Position numbers and translations under genes: made by a program
Notes under the pieces: model-generated
Told to the model about the DNA's origin: nothing
What the model saw: only the letters and a program-made list of their open reading frames with translations
Databases searched by the model: none
IMG/VR virus record: IMGVR_UViG_3300035659_000050
Location: 1 to 38,909 of that record
DNA from: a virus
DNA: 38,909 nucleotides
Direction: 5' to 3' (one strand)
Part shown: one piece after another, positions 1-35,130 of the stretch
Numbering within the stretch: position 1 is the stretch's first letter
Layout of the letters: each line of letters opens with the position of its first letter

Positions 1-127
1 CATGACCAAGCGATGTTCCAAAACATACCCATCGGCAGGTGCCATGGGATAATAGAACTCAGACGAGCGCACCAGTATTCGAACATAACCGTTCCCTGTG
101 CGTCTCCTCCCGCCATTCCACGTCTTT
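1..127. repeat. terminal direct repeat, left copy (circular-contig overlap)
   Basis: The first 127 bases are identical to 38783-38909. The HNH reading frame continues unbroken if the two copies are merged, so this is the overlap of a circular assembly (or a circularly permuted genome) and not a biological long terminal repeat. The unique genome length is then 38,782 bp. Confidence 0.93.
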
Positions 128-321
128 ATCTGTGGGCCAAAAGCCCTCGTTGTATGAGCATTGCAACGCCGACACAACCTACTCTTATTGAACATGCTCC
201 CATTGCCATGCAAGCGAAGCCATCTTTCGAAGCCACATCCTGAGCAAGAATCCCAAATGTACCGGCTTCCCTTATCTTTACCGATTATCTGGCCGCGCTC
301 TACTTGGCCGATTTGAGGCAT
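1..321 (-). CDS. HNH homing-type endonuclease, N-terminal part (continues at 38782)
   Basis: This is the first 107 codons of a 176-residue protein whose remainder is at 38782-38573. The ATG at 319-321 follows an AAGGGAG ribosome site about 10 nt upstream. The N-terminal part has a zinc-finger pattern (CSGC near residue 26, CRRC near 50). Downstream of the joint come the typical GYVLEHRLVM strand, the HNH core VHHKNGVKDDN (about 121-131) and a coiled-coil tail. It overlaps the end of the upstream gene by 44 nt. HNH proteins of this kind nick DNA and spread by homing. Its position between an 85-residue gene and a RecB-like nuclease gene suggests a free-standing homing endonuclease. The start is chosen from the ribosome site; the family call is secure. 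Confidence 0.88.
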   Translation of the reverse strand, partial: MPQIGQVERGQIIGKDKGSRYIWDSCSGCGFERWLRLHGNGSMFNKSRLCRRCNAHTTRAFGPQIKTWNGGRRRTGNGYVRILVRSSEFYYPMAPADGYVLEHRLVM

Positions 322-535
322 AACCATTCCGCTCCCTTCTGCCGGCAGCTACCGGCGCTCCATGCCGCTGAGCAAAACCAGCCATAGGATTAGCTGGGCC
401 CAGTAGCTCCCAGCCCAACAGCCTGTAATAACTCAGGAACGTTTCATAGGTCACCTGCATGACCAATCCATCAGGCCCATCAAAACAGATATAAACCTGG
501 TTTTCTATTCTCGTTCCGTTCATCCTACTTTCCAT
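278..535 (-). CDS. hypothetical protein, 85 aa
   Basis: I do not recognise this protein. The N-terminal half looks like a small folded domain (VYICFDG, then YETFLSYYRLLGWELLG); the tail is Arg/Pro-rich and overlaps the start of the HNH gene. A promoter with the recurring palindrome lies directly upstream, with only 8 nt between the -10 box and the first ATG, so translation from that ATG would be almost leaderless. A second ATG four codons later has a GGAAAG-like sequence just before it and could be the start. It is the first gene of its transcription unit. Confidence 0.7.
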   Translation of the reverse strand: MESRMNGTRIENQVYICFDGPDGLVMQVTYETFLSYYRLLGWELLGPANPMAGFAQRHGAPVAAGRRERNGYASNRPSRARPDNR

Positions 536-543
536 TTATTATT

Positions 544-572
544 ATTGTAGCACTGCAACACACATGCGTCAA
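544..572 (-). promoter_or_regulatory. sigma70 promoter with palindromic operator (site 1)
   Basis: On the minus strand the -35 box is TTGACG (567-572) and the -10 box is TACAAT (544-549), with a 17-nt spacer. The imperfect palindrome TTGCAGTGCTACAA covers the -10 region, a degenerate copy of the operator found at 1678, 2772 and 11120. It drives the 85-residue gene and possibly the genes after it around the circle. Confidence 0.75.
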
Positions 573-577
573 GGCGG

Positions 578-1645
578 CTACCACTGGACAAACATCGGCA
601 TGTTCACCACCAGAACACCCTCTAAATCACCATACACCTTGACCGGGGACGATGGGCTAATGACCTCCATCGTCAGTTCGGCGAACAGGCCAGCCAGGTC
701 AGCCACATATCGCGAATCCACAGCTATCTTCCCATCACCGGTCATCACCGCCGGTATCTTCGCCTCAAATTTATCTTCATCCTCAGTCATCGCTACCTTC
801 AGAAAACCATCCTCTGTCTTGCTCAGCCGGACAATGTGGTCCTTAAATTGCTGCACACGGCTCTGCAGCACCGGGCCAGACACCGTGAACGTCCACTCTG
901 GCTTGGCCGCCGGTATGAGCTGCGGATATTGCGGGTAACTGCCCTGAATCAGTTGGCTAACCACCCTCACATCCGGCGCTCCGTCAAACCACATCTTAGC
1001 ATTATCAAAACCAACCCTAACTGACTCTTTCTTTCTCATAATCTTCTCCAACAGCATACACGTCTTGCGCGGTATCAGCCATTTGCCTGCCGGCAATGTC
1101 AGCTTCATCGATGACATAAACAACCTGAATCCATCGGCTGAGGCAAACGACACTTTGCCCTGGCCATCAGATTCAACCAGCACCGCCGTCAGTACCGGTC
1201 GCACATCTTCATCCGCTGTAAACGGCCACGCCCGGGCCAGATTCATAATGAACTCATCGCCTACTTCATATTGTGTCTCGCCGCACATTGTATTCGGCAG
1301 TGCATCGTCCGGCGGCCCCAGATACATATTCACTTTAACCTGGCCATCCACATCGCCTAACGACAGACTACGACCTTTGCTTTCGATAACCACCGGCCCC
1401 TTTTCGTGAGCGGCGAAATGCCACAGCCTCCTGTTAGGTATCAATACCTTGCCCGCCTCCTCGACCGTAGCAAACAGGTCCATCACCAGAATCCTCTCCA
1501 GGTCAGACACACGCAGGTATGCCCGGCCATCCTTGGCCTCTATCTCGGCATTCTGTAGCACAGGCAAACCCATATTACGCGGAATGACCATGCTCGCGGC
1601 TTTCGCCGCCATACTGAGTCTACTACCAAGACACTTCAGCTTCAT
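578..1645 (-). CDS. dnaN: DNA polymerase III beta subunit (sliding clamp)
   Basis: This 355-residue protein has the length and three-repeat layout of bacterial beta clamps. It has the N-terminal region with GLPVLQNAEIEA, the central domain with the ADGFRLF motif, and an ending in VVVNMPMFVQW, which resembles the usual C-terminal MPMR-type edge. A clamp tethers the replicative polymerase to DNA. As no polymerase gene is present, it presumably recruits the host enzyme or phage repair proteins. It has its own promoter (1678-1706), a 26-nt leader and an AAGGA ribosome site 7 nt before the ATG. It is sited among other replication and recombination genes. Assignment is firm at family level. Confidence 0.93.
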   Translation of the reverse strand: MKLKCLGSRLSMAAKAASMVIPRNMGLPVLQNAEIEAKDGRAYLRVSDLERILVMDLFATVEEAGKVLIPNRRLWHFAAHEKGPVVIESKGRSLSLGDVDGQVKVNMYLGPPDDALPNTMCGETQYEVGDEFIMNLARAWPFTADEDVRPVLTAVLVESDGQGKVSFASADGFRLFMSSMKLTLPAGKWLIPRKTCMLLEKIMRKKESVRVGFDNAKMWFDGAPDVRVVSQLIQGSYPQYPQLIPAAKPEWTFTVSGPVLQSRVQQFKDHIVRLSKTEDGFLKVAMTEDEDKFEAKIPAVMTGDGKIAVDSRYVADLAGLFAELTMEVISPSSPVKVYGDLEGVLVVNMPMFVQW

Positions 1646-1677
1646 TGTTCTTTCCTTCTTTCAATGTCTATATTGTG

Positions 1678-1706
1678 ATTGTAGCGCTACAACGCTCATA
1701 CGTCAA
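1678..1706 (-). promoter_or_regulatory. sigma70 promoter with palindromic operator (site 2), upstream of dnaN
   Basis: Minus strand: -35 TTGACG at 1701-1706, -10 TACAAT at 1678-1683, spacer 17 nt. The perfect 14-bp palindrome TTGTAGCGCTACAA (1679-1692) overlaps the -10 box, so a bound regulator would block RNA polymerase. The 24-nt core is identical to the site at 2772-2800. Confidence 0.85.
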
Positions 1707-1760
1707 GTAGGTTCATGCCTCGCCCAGTCCCCGACCTGCTCTGCTGTCAGATAGCTCACT

Positions 1761-1961
1761 TCACACCCTCCTTAACGAATCTATTTGCTTCAGATGATAA
1801 TACGGCTCATGGTATAACTCTTCAGTGTGCGGCTCTGACTCCAGACTTTCCTCATGTTCATCATATTCCGCCGGTTGGACCATCACCACCTTCTCACCAT
1901 GTCTGAGAACCAGACCACACTCCTGACAGAACGTTTCACCCGCCGTATAATATCCGCCCAT
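1761..1961 (-). CDS. small CxxC protein, 66 aa
   Basis: Not recognised. The N-terminal half has CQECG, half of a zinc ribbon, followed by an acidic, His/Tyr-rich tail. The start is taken at the ATG ending at 1961 because AGGTGG lies a few bases upstream; two in-frame GTG codons lie just before it. The gene follows the stop of the 129-residue gene by a few bases, so it belongs to the operon started at 2800. Confidence 0.6.
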   Translation of the reverse strand: MGGYYTAGETFCQECGLVLRHGEKVVMVQPAEYDEHEESLESEPHTEELYHEPYYHLKQIDSLRRV

Positions 1962-1970
1962 ACTCACCAC

Positions 1971-2360
1971 CTAATGCCTTATTCTCGGGTCCGGCTTGCC
2001 TTCATACAGACTGCTCAGCGTATACTTCCCGCAGCTGTCCGGGCTCAGGTCGAACTCACAACCGCCGATATAATGCCGTGTCCGCGGTGGTCGCTTGTCT
2101 ACGAGATGCTGGCAGTACCGGCAGTTATCAGCCCAAGGCATCTCCAGAACCCGCACCTGCCGCTTGAACTTATCCAGCTCCTGCTCGGTCGTGAACTGGG
2201 CAGTCACCCCCACCATGCCATCACTCAGACTCACGAATGCGTAAGGGGCACACCCACATGGACAGGAATTTGACACCCTCACAAACGGCTCGCCTACCTG
2301 AAGACCCTTCTCGACCAGCTCCTTGTCAATTTTGAAACTGAATACTCCCATAGACTCCAT
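1971..2360 (-). CDS. hypothetical Cys-rich protein, 129 aa
   Basis: Unrecognised. It contains a CPCGC motif near residue 33 and a CRYC motif near residue 80, plus an extra C pair, suggesting one or two bound metal ions. The AAGGAG sequence upstream supports the ATG at 2360; an ATG three codons later is an alternative. It lies in an operon of small metal-binding proteins between the zinc-ribbon gene at 2414 and the small gene at 1761. Confidence 0.7.
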   Translation of the reverse strand: MESMGVFSFKIDKELVEKGLQVGEPFVRVSNSCPCGCAPYAFVSLSDGMVGVTAQFTTEQELDKFKRQVRVLEMPWADNCRYCQHLVDKRPPRTRHYIGGCEFDLSPDSCGKYTLSSLYEGKPDPRIRH

Positions 2361-2413
2361 TCGTCTCCTTTCTGCTTAGTATTATCGTAACACCTACCAT
2401 CAGCTCATCAAGC

Positions 2414-2626
2414 TCAGTCACCAAACATTTCTTCCATATCTTCAAAGAACCGGGGCATCCCCTCGGGCTTCATCCTGATACCATAGTCAGCAACCAGGGC
2501 CAGCTGACCATTTGGCTCCACAAAGTACATCGCTCCACAGCTAGGGCATTTTACCAACCCAACCCCAAGCAGTTCAAAGTCACCTTTCTGGCGGCCACAC
2601 TTCTGACACTTCCAATTATTGCCCAT
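2414..2626 (-). CDS. zinc-ribbon protein, 70 aa
   Basis: Two CxxC knuckles (CQKC near residue 7 and CPSC near residue 27) form a classic zinc ribbon, followed by an acidic C-terminus. The ATG at 2624-2626 is preferred over an upstream GTG-type start because GGGGAGG lies 7 nt before it and the previous small gene stops one base earlier. Role unknown; such ribbons in phages are often transcription- or nucleic-acid-associated. Confidence 0.72.
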   Translation of the reverse strand: MGNNWKCQKCGRQKGDFELLGVGLVKCPSCGAMYFVEPNGQLALVADYGIRMKPEGMPRFFEDMEEMFGD

Positions 2627-2627
2627 C

Positions 2628-2738
2628 TTAGGGCCTCCCCTGCCTAGTCCACCTGACATGGGCCACCACTGCGGCTATCACCGGCAGACCAAACAGGCCA
2701 CCCCAGATTGCGATTATCGGAATCCATACCATGTCCAT
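2628..2738 (-). CDS. small single-pass membrane protein, 36 aa
   Basis: A 36-residue protein with one hydrophobic segment (about residues 5-26: VWIPIIAIWGGLFGLPVIAA) and a basic tail, so probably an inner-membrane peptide with its C-terminus in the cytoplasm. It is the first gene after the promoter at 2772-2800, with a 27-nt leader carrying AGGAAAGGAG. A second ATG two codons in is equally possible. Function unknown. Confidence 0.62.
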   Translation of the reverse strand: MDMVWIPIIAIWGGLFGLPVIAAVVAHVRWTRQGRP

Positions 2739-2771
2739 TCTGCTCCTTTCCTAATAGTGTTCTTTGATTAT

Positions 2772-2800
2772 ATTGTAGCGCTACAACGCTCATACGTCAA
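2772..2800 (-). promoter_or_regulatory. sigma70 promoter with palindromic operator (site 3)
   Basis: Minus strand: -35 TTGACG at 2795-2800, -10 TACAAT at 2772-2777, spacer 17 nt. TTGTAGCGCTACAA at 2773-2786 is a perfect palindrome over the -10 box. It starts the unit 2738-1761. Confidence 0.85.
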
Positions 2801-2831
2801 TAGTATTTTCATAATATTACCAGTGGTTGAC

Positions 2832-3215
2832 TCACTCAGAATCGCCGTAACTGACCAGCCGTTTAATCAACTGAAACCGTACCACGTATACGAACTCATC
2901 AGCATCCTTCCAGTCTTCCCAGAACTTCCGCGGCTCCATTCCACGAATCTTCAATCCCTTCTGCTCAAGCCAAAGCAACCCCTCGGCGGCATAGTCTTTT
3001 TCCGGCATGATGCTGGTCCTCTCAGGATACGGGTCAGCAGTCAGGCAGATAATGGCCACTGGCTGGCCGCCGGCCCGGGGCAACCGGTCCCATGCTTGGA
3101 CATCCATGCCGCAGCGGAACCGGCGGGCATAGCCATCATTCCAGTTGCGCCGGGTGCAAGATTTATTTCCGCTGAGCAAAGCGGCAAGGGTCCATCCAAA
3201 CGAAATAATCAACAT
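2832..3215 (-). CDS. ASCH/PUA-like domain protein, 127 aa
   Basis: The start ISFGWTLAALLSGNKSCTRRNW resembles the ASCH fold seen in many phage and bacterial proteins (a SxxW...LL.G.K..TRR.W pattern). It is followed by AWDRLPRAGG and VAIICLTADPY strands. ASCH proteins bind RNA or process modified nucleosides; a specific role here is not visible. The ATG overlaps the stop region of the HNH gene before it, and the gene ends just after the promoter of the next unit. Family call is by pattern only. Confidence 0.65.
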   Translation of the reverse strand: MLIISFGWTLAALLSGNKSCTRRNWNDGYARRFRCGMDVQAWDRLPRAGGQPVAIICLTADPYPERTSIMPEKDYAAEGLLWLEQKGLKIRGMEPRKFWEDWKDADEFVYVVRFQLIKRLVSYGDSE

Positions 3216-3216
3216 A

Positions 3217-3789
3217 CTACATCTTCCCTGTTCGCCTGGCTGTCCTTACACGATGGCAATTTGCACAAACCAATTCACACTTCAACGCCTCAGCTAAAAT
3301 ATCTTCCCAAGAATACGTACTCAGCATCAGACTGACATTCTTTACCTTATCACCATTCACATGGTCAAATTCGAAAGCCGCAAGATGCGGAACACAACCA
3401 CAATCTAAACACTTACCTCCAAGTATCTCCACCAACTGCCTTTTCCGTTCGTCATGTCTATTATTTGCAGTCTTTCTTCTTTCAACAGACACCGAGGCAT
3501 ACCTTTCTCTGCGTTTTGCACTAATCCGCTCTCTATTCGCTGCTTGCCAAGCATTGCGTGTAGCCCTAACCCTATCTCGATTATTCTCCCTCCAACGCTT
3601 ACAGGCTGCCTTCGCCTTTACAGGATGCTCTCTATGCCAGCGCAGATTCATCATCCGCACGATTTCAGGGTGTCGCTGCCTCCATCTTCGCTGAGCTTCT
3701 TTGACATTTTCAGGGTGCTCAGAGCGCCACCTCTTTATACGCTCTAAGCTACGTTGGCTTCTCTCTTCAGCCACCACTCCAATTACCAT
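3217..3789 (-). CDS. HNH endonuclease with basic repeat arm, 190 aa
   Basis: The first two thirds are made of roughly 12-16-residue basic repeats of the form RWRxxHPExV (RWRSEHPENV, RWRQRHPEIV, RWHREHPVKA), likely a helical DNA-binding arm. The C-terminal third is an HNH/zinc domain: CLDCGC near residue 141, FEFDHVNGDK near 154-163 and CANCH near 179. The HNH residues are intact. GGAG lies 8 nt before the ATG. Such proteins are usually free-standing homing endonucleases; it is wedged between the ASCH-like and MmcB-like genes. Confidence 0.85.
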   Translation of the reverse strand: MVIGVVAEERSQRSLERIKRWRSEHPENVKEAQRRWRQRHPEIVRMMNLRWHREHPVKAKAACKRWRENNRDRVRATRNAWQAANRERISAKRRERYASVSVERRKTANNRHDERKRQLVEILGGKCLDCGCVPHLAAFEFDHVNGDKVKNVSLMLSTYSWEDILAEALKCELVCANCHRVRTARRTGKM

Positions 3790-3830
3790 CAGCTACTCTC
3801 CATTTTCATTCTCTCAACCTTGCTTGTGCC

Positions 3831-3849
3831 CCCTGAGCTAAACTCAGGG
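3831..3849. repeat. 19-bp palindromic hairpin, also present at 10600-10618
   Basis: CCCTGAG, a 5-nt loop and CTCAGGG give a 7-bp stem in the 74-nt gap between the MmcB-like gene and the HNH gene. A near-identical 19-mer (one loop base changed) lies in the coding sequence of the SSB-like gene. No T-tract follows on the minus strand, so it is a weak terminator at best; it may be an mRNA processing element or protein-binding site. Confidence 0.5.
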
Positions 3850-3863
3850 TCATTCCAACCTCA

Positions 3864-4658
3864 TTACTGACTGGCTACATCTTTGTTGACTTTGAACTTA
3901 TCGGCTATCTGGCGCAGCTTCTCCTCAACCTGCCATGGAGAGCCTTTCATCAACTCGAGGGCAATCTCTACCAGCTCTCCGGCATCTTCACCATACTTAT
4001 ACTTCCCGAGAAGAGTTTCAACTTCCCCTCGGAGCCAGTGCATTGCCCAGTCTAAGGAAACGAACTGGCGACCGACAAGTTTCTCTATTTTTATCTTGAG
4101 CTCCCGGGCAGCAGGTAGAGCATAACTAGCGTCAACCAAGTCTTTAGATAACCTCTTGCCGTATTTAGCCGCAGCGCTAACCAAGCCCGGGTAATTCTTC
4201 AGGTACTCGACCTCAAGGCGCCGGTATTCCTCAAAGTGATTCTGATAACCCTTCATAAGTAAGGCGAGCAGGAGATTTGGGTCTATTTGATAGTCATGCC
4301 GCGGGGCAACTTTTAGGGACCGCCAGCTTTTCTCGCCGCGAACTGTCAGTCCGCAACCTTCCGGGAGTTCTCCTTTATCAATCAACTTAGCCGGCGTAGC
4401 AAAGTAGAAGTGATGACAGAACGGCAGATAGCTGAGATATTTACCCCGCGCGACATCGCCCTGGAAGTCCCTTCTCGAGACCTTTACCTCGTAGATTTTG
4501 TTGACTGCGTTGTAACTTTTGGAGATAGCCAGAACATCGGCAACCGGTACATGGTCCTGCTGGACCGAACCCAGTGGTTGATTTGTCCAGACCATATACC
4601 CGGCTCCCTGAAGCGTTCTCGCCAGGTCTTCTCCTAAATCACGACCGTTGTATTCCAT
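3864..4658 (-). CDS. MmcB-like PD-(D/E)XK family protein, 264 aa
   Basis: The N-terminal 125 residues match the MmcB-type fold: an initial helix (DLARTLQGAGYMVWTNQ), ADVLAIS, then YEVKVSRRDFQGD and YFATPAKLI. The D (VADVLA) and E-x-K (YEVKVS) form a PD-(D/E)XK-like active site. The family is linked to DNA repair in host bacteria. The C-terminal half is helical with no recognised domain. The final 25 codons have a decayed duplicate at 5887-5945. It is placed downstream of the DUF1643 and RusA-like genes in a DNA-processing operon. Confidence 0.68.
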   Translation of the reverse strand: MEYNGRDLGEDLARTLQGAGYMVWTNQPLGSVQQDHVPVADVLAISKSYNAVNKIYEVKVSRRDFQGDVARGKYLSYLPFCHHFYFATPAKLIDKGELPEGCGLTVRGEKSWRSLKVAPRHDYQIDPNLLLALLMKGYQNHFEEYRRLEVEYLKNYPGLVSAAAKYGKRLSKDLVDASYALPAARELKIKIEKLVGRQFVSLDWAMHWLRGEVETLLGKYKYGEDAGELVEIALELMKGSPWQVEEKLRQIADKFKVNKDVASQ

Positions 4659-4672
4659 TCACACCGCTAACC

Positions 4673-5182
4673 TTACTTAAATGTCGGCGCAGGCACATAC
4701 TCTTTCAGCTCTGCCGACAAAGGCTGATAAAGCGGATGCACCGGCTGGCCACTCTTATTAACAGCGAAACAATACACCGGCTTGCCCAGAATATCTAACA
4801 CTGCTTTATCGCGGCCTGCCGAGTTGCCATGATTTCCCCAACCTACCACAATAATACCGGCCACACGCTTCAATTCAGCCAGATACCGGTCATTCTGCTC
4901 CCCTACCGCGCTATTCCCATAAACCAGCTGCTCCGGGTACGGCGACACTACCGCGAACAGATTGCCGACATACAGACCACCATAACGCCACGCTTTTGAA
5001 TAGGTCACCATCTTCAGAACGGTCTTATCATCACAACGGTACTCATCAGCCCGGGACGGATTCAGCCCCACGAATATCACCGCCGGCTTCTCCCTATCCC
5101 ATATCCGCCAGAGAGCATACCGGTAGACCCTATCCGGCGAGAATATCGCGCCTGATATACCCTCACCAACGTACGAGCTCAA
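4673..5182 (-). CDS. DUF1643 family protein, 169 aa
   Basis: Contains the DUF1643 signature: RYALWRIWD, then IFVGLNPSRADE and the WRYGGLYVGNLFA stretch, ending with a VHPLYQP motif. The function of the family is unknown; members are common in phages and islands. I place the start at the TTG ending at 5182, whose bases overlap the TGA of the RusA-like gene (TTGA) and which has AGGAG 7 nt upstream. A longer reading from 5248 would lie over the RusA coding region. The overlap implies translational coupling. Confidence 0.78.
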   Translation of the reverse strand: MSSYVGEGISGAIFSPDRVYRYALWRIWDREKPAVIFVGLNPSRADEYRCDDKTVLKMVTYSKAWRYGGLYVGNLFAVVSPYPEQLVYGNSAVGEQNDRYLAELKRVAGIIVVGWGNHGNSAGRDKAVLDILGKPVYCFAVNKSGQPVHPLYQPLSAELKEYVPAPTFK

Positions 5183-5610
5183 CGTTGCTCTCCTATCGTC
5201 ACTATCAGCTTCGATTGACAGCCGCGAATCGTCTTCGAAACGCCGCACTCAACCGAGTAATACTTATCATTGATGCCCAGAGCATTCTCAATCGCATCCG
5301 CTATCGGCTTAATTAAATTATGCACATCCGGCACTTTCTTGGTCCGGAACTCTCCATCAATCTTTATCCTCAGCGGTATCTTGAAGACAATACCAGTGCT
5401 GTTCTGATACACCCTGACCATCCAAGCCAGTTGCTCCATCCACCTCTTGACCGAATCCCTGAGCACAGTTTGGCCTGTGAATCTGTTCCGGGTCAGCCGC
5501 CGGTTGGACGACAGCTCAGGCAGATACTCCATCTCAACCACTATCTGCGGCCCGCCCTGCCCCTTAACCCTGACCGAACAGTTCATCGCCGACTCCAATC
5601 TCAGCGCCAT
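5179..5610 (-). CDS. rusA: RusA-like Holliday junction resolvase, 143 aa
   Basis: RusA family endonucleases cut four-way DNA junctions at recombination or replication intermediates. The hallmark is visible near residues 95-115: KKVPDVHNLIKPIADAIENAL followed by INDKYY, giving the conserved Asp residues and Lys of the active site. The length is normal for the family (about 120-150). The start ATG overlaps the TGA of the ribbon-helix-helix gene. It probably resolves branched phage DNA before packaging. Confidence 0.85.
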   Translation of the reverse strand: MALRLESAMNCSVRVKGQGGPQIVVEMEYLPELSSNRRLTRNRFTGQTVLRDSVKRWMEQLAWMVRVYQNSTGIVFKIPLRIKIDGEFRTKKVPDVHNLIKPIADAIENALGINDKYYSVECGVSKTIRGCQSKLIVTIGEQR

Positions 5611-5780
5611 CTTGGGTCCTTATGGTGACTTCGCATGACCTGATATTCTATCATGTCTCTGAGATAGCTAGATACCGTTTGATACTTACCCGGCACCGCT
5701 ACACGCCTCTTCAGTATCTCCACTACCTCATTCCGTAACCTAATCGGCACTATCTGCGTTGTAGCACTCCGTCCTGACAT
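5601..5780 (-). CDS. ribbon-helix-helix DNA-binding protein (CopG/Arc-like), 59 aa
   Basis: The layout is a short beta strand (TTQIVPIRLRNEV), a helix (VVEILKRRV), a turn with a Gly (PGKYQT) and a second helix (VSSYLRDMIEYQV), as in CopG/Arc/MetJ repressors that dimerise through the strand and insert it in the major groove. It has an AGGAG sequence before the ATG and its stop overlaps the RusA-like start. A perfect palindrome (5849-5862) sits 70 nt upstream, a natural autoregulatory operator. It is also a candidate for the protein that binds the TTGTAGCGCTACAA sites. Confidence 0.72.
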   Translation of the reverse strand: MSGRSATTQIVPIRLRNEVVEILKRRVAVPGKYQTVSSYLRDMIEYQVMRSHHKDPRWR

Positions 5781-5872
5781 TTCTCCCTTCTCCTGTATGA
5801 TTTTATTCTCTCGGCCATTGCCCTTCTCTCAGGCTCGCATAAGGCTCTAGGTGTATACACCTGCACGCTCAC
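5750..5872 (-). CDS. possible small basic protein, 40 aa
   Basis: A GTG-started frame with an AAGGTGG sequence upstream gives a 40-residue, Arg-rich product (MAERIKSYRRREK in its middle). It overlaps the first ten codons of the ribbon-helix-helix gene in another frame and contains the palindrome AGGTGTATACACCT. It may be a leader peptide or chance. Confidence 0.3.
   Translation of the reverse strand: MSVQVYTPRALCEPERRAMAERIKSYRRREKCQDGVLQRR
5849..5862. promoter_or_regulatory. perfect 14-bp palindrome, candidate operator
   Basis: AGGTGTATACACCT is a perfect inverted repeat lying upstream of the ribbon-helix-helix gene. Short perfect dyads upstream of an RHH gene are typical autorepressor sites. 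No clear -10/-35 pair is visible next to it. Confidence 0.5.
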
Positions 5873-5886
5873 CACCTTACACCTCT

Positions 5887-5945
5887 AACCTCATCACTGA
5901 TTGGCTACATCTCTTGGCTGCTATCTCGCAGTACTTCTCCTCTAT
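5887..5945 (-). pseudogene. decayed duplicate of the 3' end of the MmcB-like gene
   Basis: On the minus strand this stretch aligns with 3857-3930: the blocks GAGGAGAAG, AGATAGC and GATGTAGCCA, then the TCAGT-ATGAGG end, occur in the same order, with about 12 bases missing. The frame is broken, so only fragments (IEEKYCEIAAK, then DVANQ in another frame) remain. It suggests a past duplication of the gene with loss of most of one copy. The gap between the RHH gene and 6005 holds this remnant. Confidence 0.5.
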
Positions 5946-6004
5946 CCTTTCAAGCAGTCGGAGGATTATTTACTATCTCCATCAGGTACTTGCCGATGCT
6001 AAAT

Positions 6005-6361
6005 TTAATCTCCCTCAAAGATTCCATTGGGTAATAATTGAGCAAAGACCAGCAATCCTTCCAAGGCTCGTTTTGCGTTGCCCTCTGTAGGTTTCCAGTA
6101 ATCATCATCAATATCATCGCCAAGTTGAGCGATGGCACTCTCCAAAATAGGAATTGCTTGTTTGCCCGTTAAACCATATAATATTCGGATGCCTTTCTCA
6201 CCCATAGTCCTATAAAAATGAGTAGCATAATTCCAAGTTATACTTAGCCATGCCTCAGTGGTTCCTCCCATTGCATAAGTCCCACCCTTAATTTGATGAG
6301 GTTCTTCAAAGCATAAAACCTCTTTCGTGTCAGGGTGTATAACCGAAATATCGTAGCTCAT
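6005..6361 (-). CDS. hypothetical protein, 118 aa
   Basis: Function unknown. The sequence has the look of a recurrent phage/bacterial family: a start MSYDISVIHPDT, a GGTYAMGGTTEAWLSITWNY block, a GIRILYGLTG block and a closing YWKPTEGNAKRALEGLL block. No catalytic motif is evident. AAGGAG precedes the ATG, which lies inside the end of the small gene at 6330-6464. Confidence 0.7.
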   Translation of the reverse strand: MSYDISVIHPDTKEVLCFEEPHQIKGGTYAMGGTTEAWLSITWNYATHFYRTMGEKGIRILYGLTGKQAIPILESAIAQLGDDIDDDYWKPTEGNAKRALEGLLVFAQLLPNGIFEGD

Positions 6362-6464
6362 TTCCTTCTCCTTTCAAGCAGTCGGCGCAGTAGATTACTA
6401 TATCGGCCTGCTCATCCCGATAGTAAGGCTTGGGTAACTTGGCTATAACCTCTTCGAAGGTCAT
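6330..6464 (-). CDS. small protein, 44 aa
   Basis: The ATG lies 3 nt after the TGA of the helicase-loader gene. The product starts MTFEEVIAKLPKPYYRDEQAD and carries YCADC, a possible half zinc site. The C-terminal 10 codons overlap the next gene in a different frame. Its position in the gap and coupling to the upstream stop favour a real gene. Function unknown. Confidence 0.5.
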   Translation of the reverse strand: MTFEEVIAKLPKPYYRDEQADIVIYCADCLKGEGNELRYFGYTP

Positions 6465-6467
6465 TGG

Positions 6468-7247
6468 TCAATGCCTCTCTAGCCGGTGCTCCGGCGAATC
6501 GAGAACAACCACACGGCACCAGCTCTCCCTTTGTAACCTACTGCCAATCCTGTGCTCATCATCGCCGGCCAGCTGGCCCAACGGCTTATTGCTGGTCACC
6601 ACCAGCGGCAACCCTTGGTTGCCGCGGTAATGAATTATCGTCTGCAGTTGCTCGATGCCCCAGCTAGTCGTCCTCTCAACGCCCAGGTCATCCAACACCA
6701 GCAACGGAACATTGCACAGCATCTGGAACCTCTGCCGGTAAGACTGGTCACCGAGCAGCTCAAACCCATCTCGGAGTTCATTGAGCAACAACGGAACAAA
6801 GCTGTACCGGGCCGCCTTATCCCGGCTCAACCACCGGCGGCAGATGGCCACTGCAAGGTGCGTCTTCCCTCGGTCGACGCCACCAAGCAGCGTCAGCCAC
6901 TTCACCTCTCCAGTTTCATCTGCCAGCTGCAACGCTGCCGCCTTAGCATCAGCCAGGCTCTTATTCGCAGCGGTCTTAAAGCTCTCGAACGTCATGTGCT
7001 CAGTGTTCGCCGGTAACTGACAGTATCTCAGATAGTGACCAGACCGGGCCGCCGCCAACTGGCCGGCCATGCACTGGCACGGCACAGTACTCCCATAATC
7101 AACCCGCCCATCAACAACCGGGTACACTCTGCCAATGTCACGACAGACCTGACAGCGATACTGCCTAGCTGAGTGGTCTGCCGACACTTGCTCTGAGTTC
7201 TTCGGCTGTGGTCTGACCCTGGCCAGTATATCTCCTATCGGGTCCAT
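6468..7247 (-). CDS. DnaC-like helicase loader ATPase, 259 aa
   Basis: AAA+ ATPase of the DnaC/DnaI type, which loads the replicative helicase at the phage origin. Walker A is GGVDRGKTH (residues 122-130) and Walker B is LLVLDDLG. Sensor region VVTSNKPL and an arginine-rich C-terminus follow. The N-terminus has four cysteines (CQVC at 32-35, CQC at 57-59), likely a zinc ribbon that contacts the helicase. I choose the ATG at 7247 because GGGAGG lies 5 nt before it. The gene overlaps the initiator gene by about 80 nt, so the two are coupled. Confidence 0.87.
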   Translation of the reverse strand: MDPIGDILARVRPQPKNSEQVSADHSARQYRCQVCRDIGRVYPVVDGRVDYGSTVPCQCMAGQLAAARSGHYLRYCQLPANTEHMTFESFKTAANKSLADAKAAALQLADETGEVKWLTLLGGVDRGKTHLAVAICRRWLSRDKAARYSFVPLLLNELRDGFELLGDQSYRQRFQMLCNVPLLVLDDLGVERTTSWGIEQLQTIIHYRGNQGLPLVVTSNKPLGQLAGDDEHRIGSRLQRESWCRVVVLDSPEHRLERH

Positions 7248-7797
7248 TCCGGCCTCCCTTGTCACTCATTCGCTCCCAATTCAAAATAGTGGCATAATGA
7301 CTTTTATACTTGTCACCTTTACTCCGAATGTAAAGACTTAAATTCTCAATACGCTCGGCAGCATCAGCTTCACCGAACTTCTCAATCAGTTTCTGATGCT
7401 CCTCCTTGGTCAGCCGCACACTACCAGCATAAGCATCTTTCTTCTCCCGATAAGGCTTCTGCCGCTGATATTCGGATTGGTATGCAGCCCAATTCGTAAT
7501 TACTATGATACCGCCATCCTCTTCCTGAATACGCCCCTCTTCTTTGCACTTACGCAATGTCTTTTCCAGCAACTCCAAACTGATATTCAACCGGTTCGCT
7601 ATAAAACTATGCGGATAAGGACGCTCATCCTTATCCGCAATCGTGCCCGGGAGCGCACATACAGCTGAGAAATTCAACAGGTCATACCAGACTCCTCTTT
7701 CATCCGCCTCCAGCTGGTATCTGATACTCCCATCTAAACAGTCCATTGGATAGAGCTTAATCCATAGACGGCGACTCTTGACCCGCGGCTCAGCCAT
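7165..7797 (-). CDS. phage replisome organiser / DnaD-like initiator, 210 aa
   Basis: The N-terminal region (RLWIKLYPMDCLDGSIRYQLEADERGVWYDLL) is the winged-helix start typical of phage replisome organisers. The C-terminus has the DnaD-like ending HYATILNWERMSDKGG. Such proteins bind origin DNA and pass the helicase to the loader; here the loader gene overlaps directly downstream, which supports the call. Start at the ATG with AAAGGAG 5 nt upstream; a GTG two codons earlier is possible. Confidence 0.78.
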   Translation of the reverse strand: MAEPRVKSRRLWIKLYPMDCLDGSIRYQLEADERGVWYDLLNFSAVCALPGTIADKDERPYPHSFIANRLNISLELLEKTLRKCKEEGRIQEEDGGIIVITNWAAYQSEYQRQKPYREKKDAYAGSVRLTKEEHQKLIEKFGEADAAERIENLSLYIRSKGDKYKSHYATILNWERMSDKGGRNGPDRRYTGQGQTTAEELRASVGRPLS

Positions 7798-7888
7798 TAT
7801 CACTCCTTTCTACACATCCCTCCCCTACAACCCCTCCCATAGATTTAGAAAAAGATAGAGATATAGAAGTAGAAGGCATACAACAAAA

Positions 7889-7908
7889 AGTTACTGTCTT
7901 AGTTACTG
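7889..7908. repeat. repeat flanking the HNH gene, 3' copy
   Basis: AGTTACTGTCTTAGTTACTG overlaps the stop codon of the HNH gene. An imperfect inverted copy (about 16 of 21 positions) is at 8415-8435, just upstream of the promoter of that gene. The pair brackets the gene. Confidence 0.4.
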
Positions 7909-8346
7909 CTTTAAGATACCTAGCTGATATTCTAACTGTCTGATTTTAGATTTCAATGCTTGCTCGACCAAGCGGCCATGATGGTCACCCCTTGGCATAG
8001 CTAGAAGATTTTCCAGCCTATTATCGCCCTTCAATCCATTGAGGTGATGCACTATCCAATTTTTAGGCAACTTTTTTCCATGCGCTTGTTCCCACATATA
8101 ATGGTGATATGGCATTGTTTTCCCATCTACCATAACAGAGCGATATTTACTGACATCATGCGGTTTACGCTCACGACAGATACGGCAGAGCATAGCCGAG
8201 CCATACGGATTGATAACCTCCCCACATTCTTGGCAATATCTTGGTTGGCTTCTGCGCTTGTGGAAACAACTGCGGCATAGACCACTTAGGCTGTATATTT
8301 CAATGACCTGGCCACATTTACTGCAAGGCTGACCTTGATAATTCAC
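7903..8346 (-). CDS. HNH homing-type endonuclease with zinc fingers, 147 aa
   Basis: Three cysteine pairs (CSKC at 8-11, CRSC at 24-27, CQEC at 38-41) plus CRIC form N-terminal zinc fingers. The HNH core is at about 99-114 (VHHLNGLKGDNRLENL), followed by a coiled-coil C-terminus (KSKIRQLEYQLGIL). The same C-terminal plan is found in the HNH proteins at 37252 and 38573. It has its own consensus promoter (8378-8406) and a GTG start with GAGG 7 nt upstream, and is flanked by inverted repeats. Inserted just upstream of the replication initiator gene. Confidence 0.86.
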   Translation of the reverse strand: MNYQGQPCSKCGQVIEIYSLSGLCRSCFHKRRSQPRYCQECGEVINPYGSAMLCRICRERKPHDVSKYRSVMVDGKTMPYHHYMWEQAHGKKLPKNWIVHHLNGLKGDNRLENLLAMPRGDHHGRLVEQALKSKIRQLEYQLGILKQ

Positions 8347-8377
8347 GGCATTGCCTCAAATTTGATAGCTTCATTGA

Positions 8378-8406
8378 ATTTTAACATTTAGCGTGTAACC
8401 TGTCAA
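8378..8406 (-). promoter_or_regulatory. consensus sigma70 promoter of the HNH gene
   Basis: Minus strand: -35 TTGACA (8401-8406), 17-nt spacer, -10 TAAAAT (8378-8383). Predicted start near 8371, leaving a leader of about 25 nt before the GTG at 8346. Confidence 0.8.
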
Positions 8407-8414
8407 GACCGACA

Positions 8415-8435
8415 CAGTAACTATCTGTGTAACTG
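8415..8435. repeat. repeat flanking the HNH gene, 5' copy
   Basis: CAGTAAC...GTAACTG-type element just upstream of the -35 box; imperfect inverted partner of 7889-7908. Could be an operator of the promoter or a trace of the insertion. Confidence 0.4.
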
Positions 8436-8450
8436 TTTCCATTAAAGTCC

Positions 8451-8765
8451 CTATTCCTGTGTAATGCCAGTCGGGCCCTCAAGCCTGATGCTCAGGGGCC
8501 GGCCAGCGGCAGAGACAGACAAGATATTACCATCTTCCAGGGTAAGAGTCAAGACCCGACCGCGGAGCTGGAAATCAGTCACCACCTTGCCCTCAACGGC
8601 CTGTCCAATCGGATGGTCTACATAGCCGCTTCCGCACGTATGCCAAGTACCATCAGGATTAAACATGCGCAGGCTGTCATTCTCCAGCTTTAGAACAATG
8701 GCAACGCTGCACTGCGGGCACTTCTCCTGATTATCTATCTTCACTGGCTGTCGGTAACTACTCAC
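8451..8765 (-). CDS. zinc-ribbon hypothetical protein, 104 aa
   Basis: CPQC near residue 16 and an isolated C plus H further on (WHTCGSG) suggest one bound zinc; the C-terminal half is beta-rich (DFQLRGRVLTLTLEDG). GTG start with AAGGAGG 5 nt upstream. It sits between the replication genes and the HNH gene at 8784. Function unknown. Confidence 0.68.
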   Translation of the reverse strand: MSSYRQPVKIDNQEKCPQCSVAIVLKLENDSLRMFNPDGTWHTCGSGYVDHPIGQAVEGKVVTDFQLRGRVLTLTLEDGNILSVSAAGRPLSIRLEGPTGITQE

Positions 8766-8783
8766 ATCCTCCTCCTTTCGCCA

Positions 8784-9110
8784 CTATCTGGCCGGCAAAT
8801 ACCTATCCAAACCGCGACCGGTACGGAGCGCCTGCCTAAAATCCTCACCAGGCACCAAATCAGCAGCATCTGCATTCCACGAACTGGCGCTTTTATGACA
8901 GCGCAAGCACACGTCCATGCCATTTCTTTCATCGTTAATAAGTTCACGCATCACTCCTTTCCGGCCACCCATCCCCTTAGCAACTATATGATGCTTATGA
9001 ACTGCCGGCGCCATACAGCGGTAGCCATCCGGCATCTTCCTCTCGCAAAGGCCGCTGGACCTGACCCGTATTCGCCATCTTACATCTGGCGAGAACGTCA
9101 CTATGCCCAT
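8784..9110 (-). CDS. HNH-type protein, 108 aa
   Basis: Has CERKMPDGYRC, then HKHHIVAKGMGG, a conserved N (DERNGMDV) and CLRCH, which together are the zinc-stabilised HNH fold of small phage nucleases. It is much more compact than the homing-type HNH genes here and is embedded in the replication operon, so it is more likely a working phage nuclease (NinG/DUF968-like role) than a homing enzyme. The start is not well supported by a ribosome site. Confidence 0.75.
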   Translation of the reverse strand: MGIVTFSPDVRWRIRVRSSGLCERKMPDGYRCMAPAVHKHHIVAKGMGGRKGVMRELINDERNGMDVCLRCHKSASSWNADAADLVPGEDFRQALRTGRGLDRYLPAR

Positions 9111-9295
9111 CTTCCGGAGGGCGGAGCAGACAGGCGGGCATCTTGGCTAATCTTGGCTCGGATTTCTTCAAGAGTCAGATGCCCAGGCTTCTCCCACTGA
9201 GAGCACACCTTATACTCCCTATCTAGCCCTTTGCCCTTGAACATGACTGTAGCACCGCCACACTCCAGACATTTCTCAATCGTTTCAGTTGTCAC
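9101..9295 (-). CDS. small zinc-ribbon protein, 64 aa
   Basis: CLECGG near residue 9 and a later C (YKVCSQ) suggest a degenerate zinc ribbon; the sequence KCLECGG...GHLTLEEIRA is typical of small phage ribbons. The GTG start overlaps the stop of the preceding gene (GTGA), so translation is coupled. Function unknown. Confidence 0.65.
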   Translation of the reverse strand: MTTETIEKCLECGGATVMFKGKGLDREYKVCSQWEKPGHLTLEEIRAKISQDARLSAPPSGRWA

Positions 9296-10038
9296 GGTCG
9301 ATTGGCTTTGCGAGCATCAAAAGTATCGCCACAGCGCGGGCATATCACCAGCATTTCAGTTTCACTACCGCCGCCCACATTATGGCCCAGCTCAGCGCGC
9401 AAGTCCAGGTCACTCAGAACCCGGGCCGCTTCAATGACCGCCTCGGTCAGCTCACCTTTCCGGGCCAGAGGCAGCAGCCTGGTCAGCTTGGCCACCCCTA
9501 TCTCGGCCAAGAGCTTCTCATCCAGCTTCATGTTCAGCACCAGGTACTCATAGATATTGGACAGCCGTGTCGCCCAGCTATACGAATTGGTCATCGGCAA
9601 CTTCAGGTCCACAATATATTCCTTATACGATTCATAATGCAGAACCGTCCACTCGCCCTTCTTCTGGGCATTGAACAGCAGCTGGCCCATCCTCAAGAAC
9701 ATGACCTCAGCCTCGATAGCCAGCGCCTCTATCTGCTGCTTGTGCTCATAGGCCGTTTTCTCGGCCTCTGAAGGCACCCCGACCACCTCCTGCACGGTTG
9801 TCTGACTAACCTCTACCTCAGTGCCCTCTAGGTGCTGTCCTGCAGCAGGCGGCGACCCCTCCGTGGATTTCTTCTTCCCCTTCGTCTTCTTGGCAGCAGC
9901 CGCCGGAATATCCGGCAATATCTCAACAAAGGCAGTAACATCTTCTCCCCAACCCTGAGCCTTAAAAGCTGCAGGCAGATTAGGGGCCTCCACCTCTACC
10001 ACCTCACCTGTTGTTTGATTGGTCATCTTGTACCTCAT
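9292..10038 (-). CDS. hypothetical protein with helical core and C-terminal zinc knuckle, 248 aa
   Basis: The N-terminus (YKMTNQTTGEVVEVEAP) is followed by an Ala/Lys/Pro-rich linker, then a helical domain (about 100-215) with a GQLLFNAQKKGEWTVL motif reminiscent of DUF3102-like or ParB-related helical domains, and a C-terminal CPRCGD knuckle. ATG at 10038 chosen because AGGAGG lies just upstream; an earlier start has no such site. It lies in the replication operon after the SSB-like gene. Confidence 0.65.
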   Translation of the reverse strand: MRYKMTNQTTGEVVEVEAPNLPAAFKAQGWGEDVTAFVEILPDIPAAAAKKTKGKKKSTEGSPPAAGQHLEGTEVEVSQTTVQEVVGVPSEAEKTAYEHKQQIEALAIEAEVMFLRMGQLLFNAQKKGEWTVLHYESYKEYIVDLKLPMTNSYSWATRLSNIYEYLVLNMKLDEKLLAEIGVAKLTRLLPLARKGELTEAVIEAARVLSDLDLRAELGHNVGGGSETEMLVICPRCGDTFDARKANRP

Positions 10039-10151
10039 GGCTCCTCCTTTATTCCCCCGAAAGGGAAGGTGGGGGCTGGCTCTCTTACACTCAGTCATTT
10101 TTTTACTCTACCTTGCACATATGAGCAGCACCCCCACCCTAGCCTTACCGC

Positions 10152-10835
10152 CTACTTTTCCCCGGCTGCTGTTTCCAGCAGCTGCAGATATGCTTTCTCG
10201 AAGGTGCCGCACTTCTCCAGCAGCTCCTCCATTGACTTGACATCAAACTTCTTTTCAACATCGCTGCGGTTTAGTCCCTTCTCTTTGGCGCACGCCGTCA
10301 GAAACTCGCCGGCATTCTTAAAGCTCGCGGCCTGTGGCGCCTCTGACCCCGGGAATAGCTCTTCCTTTATTGGTGCATCGGCGGCAACCTTCGGCTCTGC
10401 TTTCTTGGCTGTGCTGGCCTTAACAACTGGCGCAACCTGGAGCCGAGACCGGGCATAATCAAACACCGCCTCCCTCAAATCATCCGGTACTTGCCTTCCC
10501 TGCGCCATCAACTCAATCATCCCTTTGAAGGCTACTTGGCTCTCAATGCTCCGGCGCTCTGCCCCGAACTGCTCCGGCGTCTTGGCGTGAGCGCCATTGC
10601 CCTGAGCCAAACTCAGGGCCTGAGCTTTCCCCTCCTCCAGCACTTTCCATTCAACGATATTGATATACTTCCCTTCGACCTTTATCTCGATACCAAGACG
10701 GCTGCCCGGCGTGACCTGCTTAATCTTGGTATCGAACGTGGTGAACTCGCCGCCCTTCTCATCGACAACAGCATAGAACTGCTGCTTGCCCTTACCCAGG
10801 GGCCCTCTGACTTCCTTTACAGTAATCTCCTGCAT
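10152..10835 (-). CDS. OB-fold SSB-like protein, 227 aa
   Basis: The first 65 residues (TVKEVRGPLGKGKQQFYAVV, then FDTKIKQ and GIEIKVEGKYINIVEW) read as a single OB fold, so single-strand DNA binding is likely. A long Ala/Lys-rich linker follows, then a helical C-terminal domain (about 180-225) with FLTACAKEKGLNRSDVEKK. It is the first large gene of the replication operon. The palindrome 10600-10618 lies within the coding sequence. Direct homology to SSB is not shown; the call is structural. Confidence 0.6.
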   Translation of the reverse strand: MQEITVKEVRGPLGKGKQQFYAVVDEKGGEFTTFDTKIKQVTPGSRLGIEIKVEGKYINIVEWKVLEEGKAQALSLAQGNGAHAKTPEQFGAERRSIESQVAFKGMIELMAQGRQVPDDLREAVFDYARSRLQVAPVVKASTAKKAEPKVAADAPIKEELFPGSEAPQAASFKNAGEFLTACAKEKGLNRSDVEKKFDVKSMEELLEKCGTFEKAYLQLLETAAGEK

Positions 10836-11022
10836 TTCCTTTCAGCTCCTTTTTAATGATTTCCCTCTGTTCTCTTTTTTGTTGTGCCCGCAGATACTCC
10901 GGACGGACCGGATACTGCAGGCTGTCCAGCGTTATCACTTGAGCTACTCGGCCTGTTCCATGACAGATTGGACAACCACGACCTTTACACTTGGAACAGA
11001 ACGACCACTGCTTGACATCCAC
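10792..11022 (-). CDS. DnaJ-type zinc-finger small protein, 76 aa
   Basis: CSKCKGRGC and CPICHGTG (residues 9-24) match a CxxCxGxG zinc finger as in DnaJ and similar phage proteins. A Lys/Glu-rich helix follows. The GTG at 11022 is the only sensible start in frame; AGGAGGGG lies about 9 nt before it. First gene after the promoter at 11072-11099; its end overlaps the SSB-like gene start by 44 nt. Confidence 0.65.
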   Translation of the reverse strand: MDVKQWSFCSKCKGRGCPICHGTGRVAQVITLDSLQYPVRPEYLRAQQKREQREIIKKELKGNAGDYCKGSQRAPG

Positions 11023-11071
11023 GCATCCATTCCCCTCCTTTCAGCTCCTTTCTTTAGTTTCCGATAATGAT

Positions 11072-11099
11072 ATTATACCACTCATGCAACAGAAATCAA
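11072..11099 (-). promoter_or_regulatory. sigma70 promoter of the replication operon
   Basis: Minus strand: -35 TTGATT (11094-11099), 16-nt spacer, -10 TATAAT (11072-11077), giving a leader of about 43 nt before the GTG at 11022. Located between the lysis-region gene at 11195 and the replication genes. Confidence 0.78.
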
Positions 11100-11119
11100 G
11101 TGCGGCAACCGAGCCATCA

Positions 11120-11133
11120 TTGTAGCGCTACAA
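11120..11133. promoter_or_regulatory. palindromic operator (site 4)
   Basis: A perfect TTGTAGCGCTACAA, the same 14-mer as at 1679 and 2773. Here its TACAAT is not preceded by a good -35 box; it sits some 20 nt upstream of the promoter at 11072-11099, so it could act as an upstream operator or activator site. Confidence 0.78.
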
Positions 11134-11194
11134 GCTCTACGACCCGATAAATAATATGGACGTTGTGGCACGTCGCCATTCTGCACAAATAGAG

Positions 11195-11389
11195 TTACGA
11201 AGCTGGCTCAGTGCTATCGCGTGACGGAGCTGCTTCGTGCTTCGCCCTCTCATATAATGGGCATCGCCCGAAAGGGCAAGCTTTCTCAACGCTCTTAGTC
11301 AAAATACCAATGCGAAACCACATGACGCCTGTAGCCGTGGCCTGACCTACTACTAATACGAATACTGCCCAAAGTAAAACAGAGTCCAT
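11195..11389 (-). CDS. small membrane protein, 64 aa
   Basis: One N-terminal membrane segment (about 4-26, LLWAVFVLVVGQATATGVMWF), then a cytoplasmic tail with CPFGRCPLYE, a Cys pair. AAAGGAG lies upstream. It follows the two-span holin candidate and precedes the replication promoter, so a part in lysis is possible. Confidence 0.65.
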   Translation of the reverse strand: MDSVLLWAVFVLVVGQATATGVMWFRIGILTKSVEKACPFGRCPLYERAKHEAAPSRDSTEPAS

Positions 11390-11404
11390 TATAGGCTCCT
11401 TTCT

Positions 11405-11656
11405 TTATTCGGGCTTCGCCCGCCTGAAATAGTGTTGGAACACTAACGTCGTCAGCGTACCGAATATGCCAGTCATAACACCGGCGCCGGATGCGCTCAA
11501 TATATCAGTTACTTTGAGTAGAGTGATAGCGCGTTCCGTAGCATAGACGGCAAACGCTGACCAACCCAGGGTTACAAGAAGCATTATCACCGCCAGCACG
11601 AACTTGTTGCGCTCTACCATCAAGACCATCTTCTGCTTGAACTGTGTATCATCCAT
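11405..11656 (-). CDS. holin-like two-span membrane protein, 83 aa
   Basis: Two membrane segments (about 19-40, FVLAVIMLLVTLGWSAFAVY; and 53-75) joined by a short loop, with charged ends, fit a class II holin or a small inner-membrane protein. CGGAGG lies before the ATG. Next to it are two more single-span proteins, downstream of the tail fibre gene, the usual place for lysis genes. No sequence family is recognised. Confidence 0.6.
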   Translation of the reverse strand: MDDTQFKQKMVLMVERNKFVLAVIMLLVTLGWSAFAVYATERAITLLKVTDILSASGAGVMTGIFGTLTTLVFQHYFRRAKPE

Positions 11657-11672
11657 CGCTACCTCCGAGCAA

Positions 11673-11777
11673 TCACTTTAGCCGATTACAGGCGCGCCGA
11701 ATGGCAATACCCATTGCTACGCATCCACATAAAGCGCTGACCAAGAACACAACGGCAAAAGCTAAGTCAGCATTCAT
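11673..11777 (-). CDS. small membrane peptide, 34 aa
   Basis: A single hydrophobic helix (residues 5-26, LAFAVVFLVSALCGCVAMGI) with a basic C-terminus. Its ATG directly follows the TAG of the fibre gene, so it is probably translated by re-initiation. May be part of the lysis cassette. Confidence 0.6.
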   Translation of the reverse strand: MNADLAFAVVFLVSALCGCVAMGIAIRRACNRLK

Positions 11778-13184
11778 CTAAGCACTAAGCCTTACGAAAA
11801 TTGCTGGTATAGGAGCAGCAACTATCATTGTTGGGCTACTAGGAAACGTACTGGGCAATGCCCCGTAAGTTTGACTAACGTAAAGCCCAGCGTTTTGAGC
11901 TGTTCCCAAAGCACTGGAATGGCCCAGCATATTGATAACCCCTGCAACTGGGATGCAATATATAGAGTGTATGACGTCGCAGACAAGTACCAACCAATAG
12001 AGAATATCTCCAGGCAACGCCTGACTTATAGTAAGGGCCTTGGCTCCGGTAGTGCTAGCATCATAAACCCCAGCATCCAACACAAGAGAGCCGGGATAGA
12101 CGAAGGACGCCCCTATACCAAGGTCAGCATAAACGCCCAAGCGTCCGTGGGCGCTGGTTCCCAGAGTAGACACGTATACGCCTATTCTATCAAGAGTCAT
12201 TCCCTTCGGACAAGGGAAAGGCATGGCGTAAAGTCTGTTGATGGTTAACGCCGAACCGGCCAGAGCAGCTCCGACCTTCGGAGAAGTATGCCACGCCTCA
12301 TATTTGGTAGTGCCGTAATGCCTGAAATAGGATATATCAAAATCGGCCTGCGGAACTTGCCAACTTTGGTCGTCTCTCAAGAACTTCGCTCCTGTAGGCG
12401 TTCCCGAACCTAACTGAGATGCAGGCACCAACACACCTGCATCGAGAGATGGATAACCACTAGCGGCACCTTTGTTAGCAGTCTTCTCCAAATTGGTGGC
12501 AGAAGCATGCGGGCTGATTAAACCGTCATGAGTATCAACTTTCGTTTGCGCTCCTGATGGAGTTTCTTTAGCTGCCAAGTCTGTTACTAGATTAGCAACA
12601 TCAGATTCAGCGTGGGGATGGCCTGGCGCAGAATAGTCTGTACCCGATACAGCCTGAGCAATCTTAGTAGAGGCTCCCTTCAACAAGCCAGTAATATTCG
12701 TATCAGTATTGGTTGTTACCTGATTAGGGCCAGGGTCTCCTTGAATTCCCTGTATGCCTTGCTGCCCTTGCGGACCAGCATCGCCCGTATCGCCCTTAGC
12801 ACCTTGAGTACCAGTATCACCCTTCGCACCGGACTCGCCTTGTATTCCTTGTTGGCCTTGAGGGCCGGTATCGCCAAGGTCTCCTTTATCCCCTTTATCA
12901 CCTTCAGCGCCGACCTCTCCTTGGACTCCCTGAATGCCCTGCTCACCCTGCGGTCCTTGATAACCCTGCGGACCCTGAGGACCTGTATCACCAGTGTCGC
13001 CTTTGTCGCCCTTCTCTCCAGGGATACCAGACGAATATGGTAAACTGCTCCAGTGAGTTGAGCCGTCGCCAACTTTGAACTTCCCGGTGTCCATTTCGTA
13101 TCCAGGTTCGCCAACGGCTAGAATGGGATTAATTGAAGTCCACAGAGACGCTGTACCTCGTCTATATTGAATTTTAACGGGCAT
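11778..13184 (-). CDS. collagen-like tail fibre, 468 aa
   Basis: The N-terminal 50 residues (IQYRRGTASLWTSINPILAVGEPGYEMDTGKFKVGDG) are the common phage-fibre entry motif that joins fibres to the baseplate. Residues 53-154 are 34 uninterrupted Gly-X-Y triplets, a collagen-like triple helix rich in GDK, GDT and GPQ/GIQ units. A helical neck follows with LGSGTPTGAKFLRDD (shared with the next protein), then a C-terminal beta-sandwich-like receptor-binding head. It is trimeric by inference. TAATG overlap with the previous gene. Confidence 0.88.
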   Translation of the reverse strand: MPVKIQYRRGTASLWTSINPILAVGEPGYEMDTGKFKVGDGSTHWSSLPYSSGIPGEKGDKGDTGDTGPQGPQGYQGPQGEQGIQGVQGEVGAEGDKGDKGDLGDTGPQGQQGIQGESGAKGDTGTQGAKGDTGDAGPQGQQGIQGIQGDPGPNQVTTNTDTNITGLLKGASTKIAQAVSGTDYSAPGHPHAESDVANLVTDLAAKETPSGAQTKVDTHDGLISPHASATNLEKTANKGAASGYPSLDAGVLVPASQLGSGTPTGAKFLRDDQSWQVPQADFDISYFRHYGTTKYEAWHTSPKVGAALAGSALTINRLYAMPFPCPKGMTLDRIGVYVSTLGTSAHGRLGVYADLGIGASFVYPGSLVLDAGVYDASTTGAKALTISQALPGDILYWLVLVCDVIHSIYCIPVAGVINMLGHSSALGTAQNAGLYVSQTYGALPSTFPSSPTMIVAAPIPAIFVRLSA

Positions 13185-13420: not shown

Positions 13421-13421
13421 A

Positions 13422-17501: not shown

Positions 17502-17512
17502 ACCAGCCTCCC

Positions 17513-17968: not shown

Positions 17969-17978
17969 GTCAAACCTC

Positions 17979-18362: not shown

Positions 18363-18428
18363 AATCGTTGGCGCAGGAGACTGTCTCCTTCAGGTGACAG
18401 AGGAATGCGCCCCTCCTCTATTAAATAC

Positions 18429-18457: not shown

Positions 18458-18463
18458 ATAGGT

Positions 18464-35103: not shown

Positions 35104-35130
35104 TTCTTTCTCCTTCACGTTTAACAGCAA

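Follow-up and report, generated by a model that had tools for sequence, protein, structure and literature searches.

A 14 bp palindrome, TTGTAGCGCTACAA, recurs at four gene-start regions of a phage genome, and a distantly related phage carries it unaltered at the corresponding position. Together these observations point to a docking site for one protein that would switch early and replication genes together. Judged from sequence, the palindrome is probably (roughly 0.66) the operator of a single regulator, a dimer that would bind DNA there and coordinate the phage's early modules. A regulon is thereby defined by sequence and open to testing, in a phage that has no cultured close relative.

Genome organization

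The window, meaning the whole stretch of DNA analysed, is virus record IMGVR_UViG_3300035659_000050, of 38,909 bases. A 127 bp direct terminal repeat (1–127 identical to 38783–38909) indicates that the genome is circular and complete at 38,782 bp. Nearly all of the recognised genes lie on the minus strand, with families that include the large and small terminase subunits, portal, DnaN, a DnaC-like loader, a replisome organiser, a RusA-like protein, an exonuclease and several HNH endonucleases; no integrase family was among those listed in the pooled protein scans. Known phages are distant, with a best terminase identity of about 39 % and DnaN identities of 21–27 %, and searches with the DnaN, portal and DnaC-like proteins found no close relatives. 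The phage encodes its own DnaN sliding clamp, for which tblastn at E 1e-3 matched only 26 of 50,697 phage records, all at less than 60 % identity. The exception to the minus-strand layout is a TnpB/IS605 OrfB-like gene (18434–19552, plus strand; PF07282, E 6e-19; PF01385, E 1e-7) inside the tail module, present in both assemblies of this virus (the window and L037, described below). The 355-aa ORF antisense to it (18359–19426) matches no family and is unlikely to be a real gene.

Recurrence of the palindrome

Exact copies of the palindrome, unassigned to strand, were located at 1679–1692, 2773–2786 and 11120–11133, and at each of these the perfect dyad is 14 bp long with a 4 bp GCGC centre. 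A degenerate copy with two mismatches lies at 545–558 (TTGTAGCACTGCAA on the plus strand, TTGCAGTGCTACAA on the minus strand), which bears out an earlier note on this DNA that had described four sites, one of them degenerate. In the 545 copy, the half on the -10 side is intact and both mismatches fall in the other half. Taken singly this copy is unremarkable, 1.39 sites with three or fewer mismatches being expected by chance; its 29 bp context is 83 % identical to the cassettes around 1679 and 2773.

Among 200 dinucleotide-preserving shuffles of the sequence, none contained a 14 bp palindrome twice and only three contained a 12 bp palindrome twice. Chance recurrence was thereby rejected, and the same symmetric site occurs at several phage promoters more commonly than expected. 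A restriction or methylation site was rejected, since AGCGCT occurs 11 times against 10.3 expected and is thus neither avoided nor enriched. An RNA hairpin was likewise rejected: the dyad by itself gives a fold of only -1 kcal/mol, and its position is upstream of where transcription is predicted to start. The exact palindrome had no match in the literature searched.

Three predicted promoter cassettes carry the palindrome over the -10 box

Three of the sites lie within predicted minus-strand promoters of the form TTGACG-17-TACAAT, identified as consensus matches. These cassettes are located at 544–572, 5′ of a gene for an 85-aa protein (278–535, minus strand; an open reading frame with no family in Pfam, PHROGs or NCBIfam); at 1678–1706, 5′ of dnaN (578–1645, minus strand; PF02767/PF00712, phrog_947); and at 2772–2800, 5′ of genes for small Cys-rich proteins (2738 down to 1761, minus strand). 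The -35 element TTGACG matches TTGACA at five of six positions in all three, against a background frequency of 0.6 % for such hexamers. In each, the right half of the palindrome is the -10 box.

The repeated unit is 29 bp long and runs from the -35 element through the last base of the -10 box. The copies at 1678–1706 and 2772–2800 are identical over these 29 bp and the 544 copy is 83 % identical (repeat finder). The block common to 1678 and 2772 ends exactly at the -35 and -10 edges, with unrelated flanks on either side, and the two full cassettes could be recent copies of each other. The three sites for which the earlier note had claimed overlap with the -10 box of such a promoter are those at 545, 1679 and 2773; the 17 nt arrangement of -35 and -10 elements is missing at 11120. 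The accompanying claim of a largely conserved -35 element and spacer holds for these three, where the whole promoter core repeats.

The 85-aa protein, DnaN and the small Cys-rich proteins are the predicted members of the regulon at these cassettes. A dimer bound over the -10 box would block RNA polymerase at 545, 1679 and 2773, and would thus silence dnaN and the units of the 85-aa gene and the Cys-rich proteins. Two modes are compatible with this arrangement: the promoters could be active early and then be silenced, or could be repressed while the phage is dormant.

A fourth site lies upstream of the replication operon

The palindrome at 11120 is perfect and has no -35 element of its own at the 17 nt spacing (best match two of six positions). 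This indicates that the dyad is maintained separately from the promoter. By eye, the site reads CGTA-GAGC-TTGTAGCGCTACAAT against CGTATGAGCGTTGTAGCGCTACAAT in the cassettes, with the -35 element lost and the dyad intact, which gives it the look of a cassette in decay. The promoter predicted downstream of it is a different one, TTGATT-16-TATAAT with a TG-extended -10 box (11072–11099, minus strand; consensus match), which is about 50 nt before the first gene of the replication operon (start 11022). Counting the last -10 base as -7, the centre of the dyad is at about -61.5, a classic position for an upstream activator; repression from there is also possible. Immediately before the site, a terminator-like hairpin (11159–11174, minus strand; pattern match only) would end the late operon. 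Downstream, the operon encodes a 227-aa protein (10152–10835, minus strand). The fold model of a 248-aa protein (9292–10038) was too poor for use.

At 11120 the same protein would act from upstream of the -35 element, either as an activator or as an auxiliary repressor. The overlap with the -10 box fits occlusion at the three cassettes, and the position upstream of the -35 element, both at 11120 and in the relative described below, also fits an activator.

The site is conserved at the replication operon of a divergent relative

A scan of the viral collection for the 15-mer TTGTAGCGCTACAAT found 17 loci. Each has a single exact copy, and the multiplicity of the window recurs at none of them. 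One locus, L037 (IMG/VR 3300035660), represents the same virus assembled a second time: its bases 1–10725 are 99.94 % identical to window positions 8689–19413 (10,725 bp), the only differences being seven transitions, none of them in the 11120 site. A second, L040, is a contig of 8,052 bp for which blastn gave no match to the window. It encodes a homologue of the tail-module protein at 17513–17968 (29 % identity, E 2e-14) and a homologue of the replication-operon protein at 10152–10835 (29 % identity over 139 aa). A single exact palindrome lies between its tail and replication modules, syntenic with the 11120 site. This palindrome has no -35 element of its own; 8 nt after it there is a separate predicted promoter, TTGACA-16-TACAAT with a TG-extended -10 box, followed by the homologous gene, and the dyad centre is at about -49.5. 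L040 and the 1679 and 2773 cassettes have 17 nt in common; with both strands compared, the two contigs share no longer exact string. The upstream neighbour in L040 is an S-adenosylmethionine decarboxylase gene (611–1012; PF02675, E 2e-17), the stop codon of which is inside the palindrome.

L040 is a single 8 kb fragment that lacks the early region. It came to light in a scan for the motif, so the presence of the motif in it is no evidence. The evidence is that the match proved to be a relative and that the site stands upstream of a homologous gene. The site is thus conserved at the orthologous operon of a relative, for one relative and one operon. The other motif matches showed no detectable homology to window proteins, and -35-anchored scans of the viral collection returned only L013 and L014, both without such homology. 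Occurrence at a similar density in related genomes had been set beforehand as the refuting outcome: 15 records of terminase relatives held three single sites with two mismatches against five for a reversed control. With these relatives not above background, the comparison of densities did not refute the shared operator. The motif by itself retrieved two contigs overlooked by protein searches, the second assembly and the divergent relative with its syntenic site, and thus offers a handle for finding relatives. Near-identical 128 bp starts (bases 1–128) of two contigs of one Eubacteriales MAG, L008 and L011, end in TATTGTAGCGCTACAAT; these are probably an assembly repeat end that contains the same palindrome.

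The earlier note had proposed a regulon controlled by one repressor. The shared operator is supported by its recurrence, its position in the promoters, its retention at 11120 without a -35 element and its conservation in L040. That one repressor reads it, that a protein binds there as a dimer, and the sign of its effect at each site are what we infer from these features. The kind of system is ordinary and the arrangement in two geometries is unusual.

Candidate regulators

A close precedent is protein p4 of phi29, a phage dimer that represses early promoters while activating another, binding inverted repeats over early-promoter core elements and aiding polymerase at another promoter (PMC3100819). 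The geometry here, over the -10 box at three sites and upstream of the -35 element at 11120 and in L040, appears compatible with a dual regulator of this type. If one protein does act from both positions, the sites would form a compact early-gene switch comparable to that of p4. However, the p4 sites are CTTTTT-15-AAAATG over the -35 element and its four sites cluster between A2c and A3, whereas the phage described here has a contiguous 14 bp dyad over the -10 box and dispersed sites. No p4 homologue was identified in this phage.

The identity of the reader was considered among phage and host proteins. A serious rival to a phage-encoded protein is a host LacI-family regulator, which would tie the early promoters to a host metabolic signal; we regard this as possible but on balance unlikely. 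An even palindrome with a central CG is the operator signature of the LacI family, found for 1173/1303 regulators (PMC4052901), and the phage palindrome has both properties. No LacI or Cro/CI-type HTH family was present among the 25 of 69 families listed for 48 smaller phage proteins. The HTH_Crp_2 match belongs to the replisome organiser (7165–7803), and the other traced HTH matches belong to an HNH protein (37252–37905). Three Bifidobacterium species have the exact palindrome 5′ of GH31 genes, two of them with a LacI gene close by, and these three matches look like genuine LacI-type operators. An unrelated phi29-like fragment, L014, which has a gp16 homologue and no detected homology to the window, carries the exact palindrome over the -10 box of a TTGACA-17-TACAAT promoter (110–138) near its left end. 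However, the 14 bp dyad is shorter than the usual 16–22 bp of LacI-family operators (PMC4052901), and nothing ties the phage to Bifidobacterium. The seven matches obtained in a scan of genome contigs, the three from Bifidobacterium among them, are at about the chance level by a rough estimate, single sites in other phages may be due to chance, and the sole motif match with homologous gene content is the phage relative L040. If the reader were a host LacI protein, the phage may sense host nutrition at its early promoters. In a fuller scenario, one protein, perhaps a sugar regulator of the LacI type supplied by the host, shuts off dnaN and the small early genes at the -10 box and activates the replication operon from upstream; with such a host protein, phage replication would be coupled to host metabolism. 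This scenario is speculative and improbable.

The phage candidate put forward in the earlier note is a ribbon-helix-helix (RHH)-like protein of 59 aa (5601–5780, minus strand), and it too is a tentative and rather unlikely choice. Its sequence has the RHH pattern, an AlphaFold model places helices at residues 13–26 and 36–52 with low confidence (pLDDT 65), and there is a weak match (E 0.037) to TraY, an RHH protein. No PDB fold match was obtained, and with a model of such low confidence what supports the candidate is its likely fold. RHH proteins usually bind paired subsites, for which one 14 bp dyad per promoter is short. The gene lies in the run of genes downstream of 11120, which would allow autoregulation. 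However, another perfect 14 bp palindrome of different sequence, AGGTGTATACACCT, lies closer to it at 5849–5862, being the nearest one upstream, and is a natural candidate for this protein's own operator. RHH proteins appear able to read TTGTA..TACAA dyads, since the E. coli RHH repressor RelB uses the half-site TTGTAATTACAA, which resembles these arms, in its operator relO (PMC2812701). In relO, four hexads follow one another without spacing between half-sites (PMC2812701), whereas a single dyad with a 4 bp GCGC centre is found here.

Other possible explanations

The palindrome might also be a by-product of a duplicated strong promoter, a cassette having been copied and the dyad being an accident of TACAAT plus its mirror in the spacer. 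The 29 bp identity of two cassettes fits such copying, as does the 545 copy, which retains the -35 and -10 elements but differs at two positions in the far half of the dyad. However, 11120 retains the dyad without a -35 element, L040 does so upstream of another promoter, and around the identical cassettes all similarity ceases at the outer edges of the -35 and -10 elements. This explanation is quite improbable, and the shared operator is preferred.

Very improbable is a block to transcription of the kind exerted at mycobacteriophage L5 stoperators, which would suit the stop codon inside the L040 palindrome and the location of 11120 between the late and replication operons but not four symmetric sites, three of them in promoters, nor a late operon already closed by a terminator-like hairpin. 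As in L5 and cluster A, where repressor sites are dispersed over the phage genome and some lie inside early promoters, the sites in this phage are scattered; the cluster A sites are 13 bp long, asymmetric, up to 30 per genome and mostly outside promoters (PMC6550527). The stoperator features of asymmetry, mostly non-promoter location and many copies in one orientation were not found here.

A second repeated element

A second repeated element of 42 bp was observed at 35110–35151 and 35551–35592, the two copies being 76 % identical and each lying directly 5′ of the ribosome-binding site of one of two adjacent genes. The inverted repeat CGTTTAAT-GAGC-ATTAAACG is contained in one copy. The element may represent a further operator or a hairpin that acts in translation.
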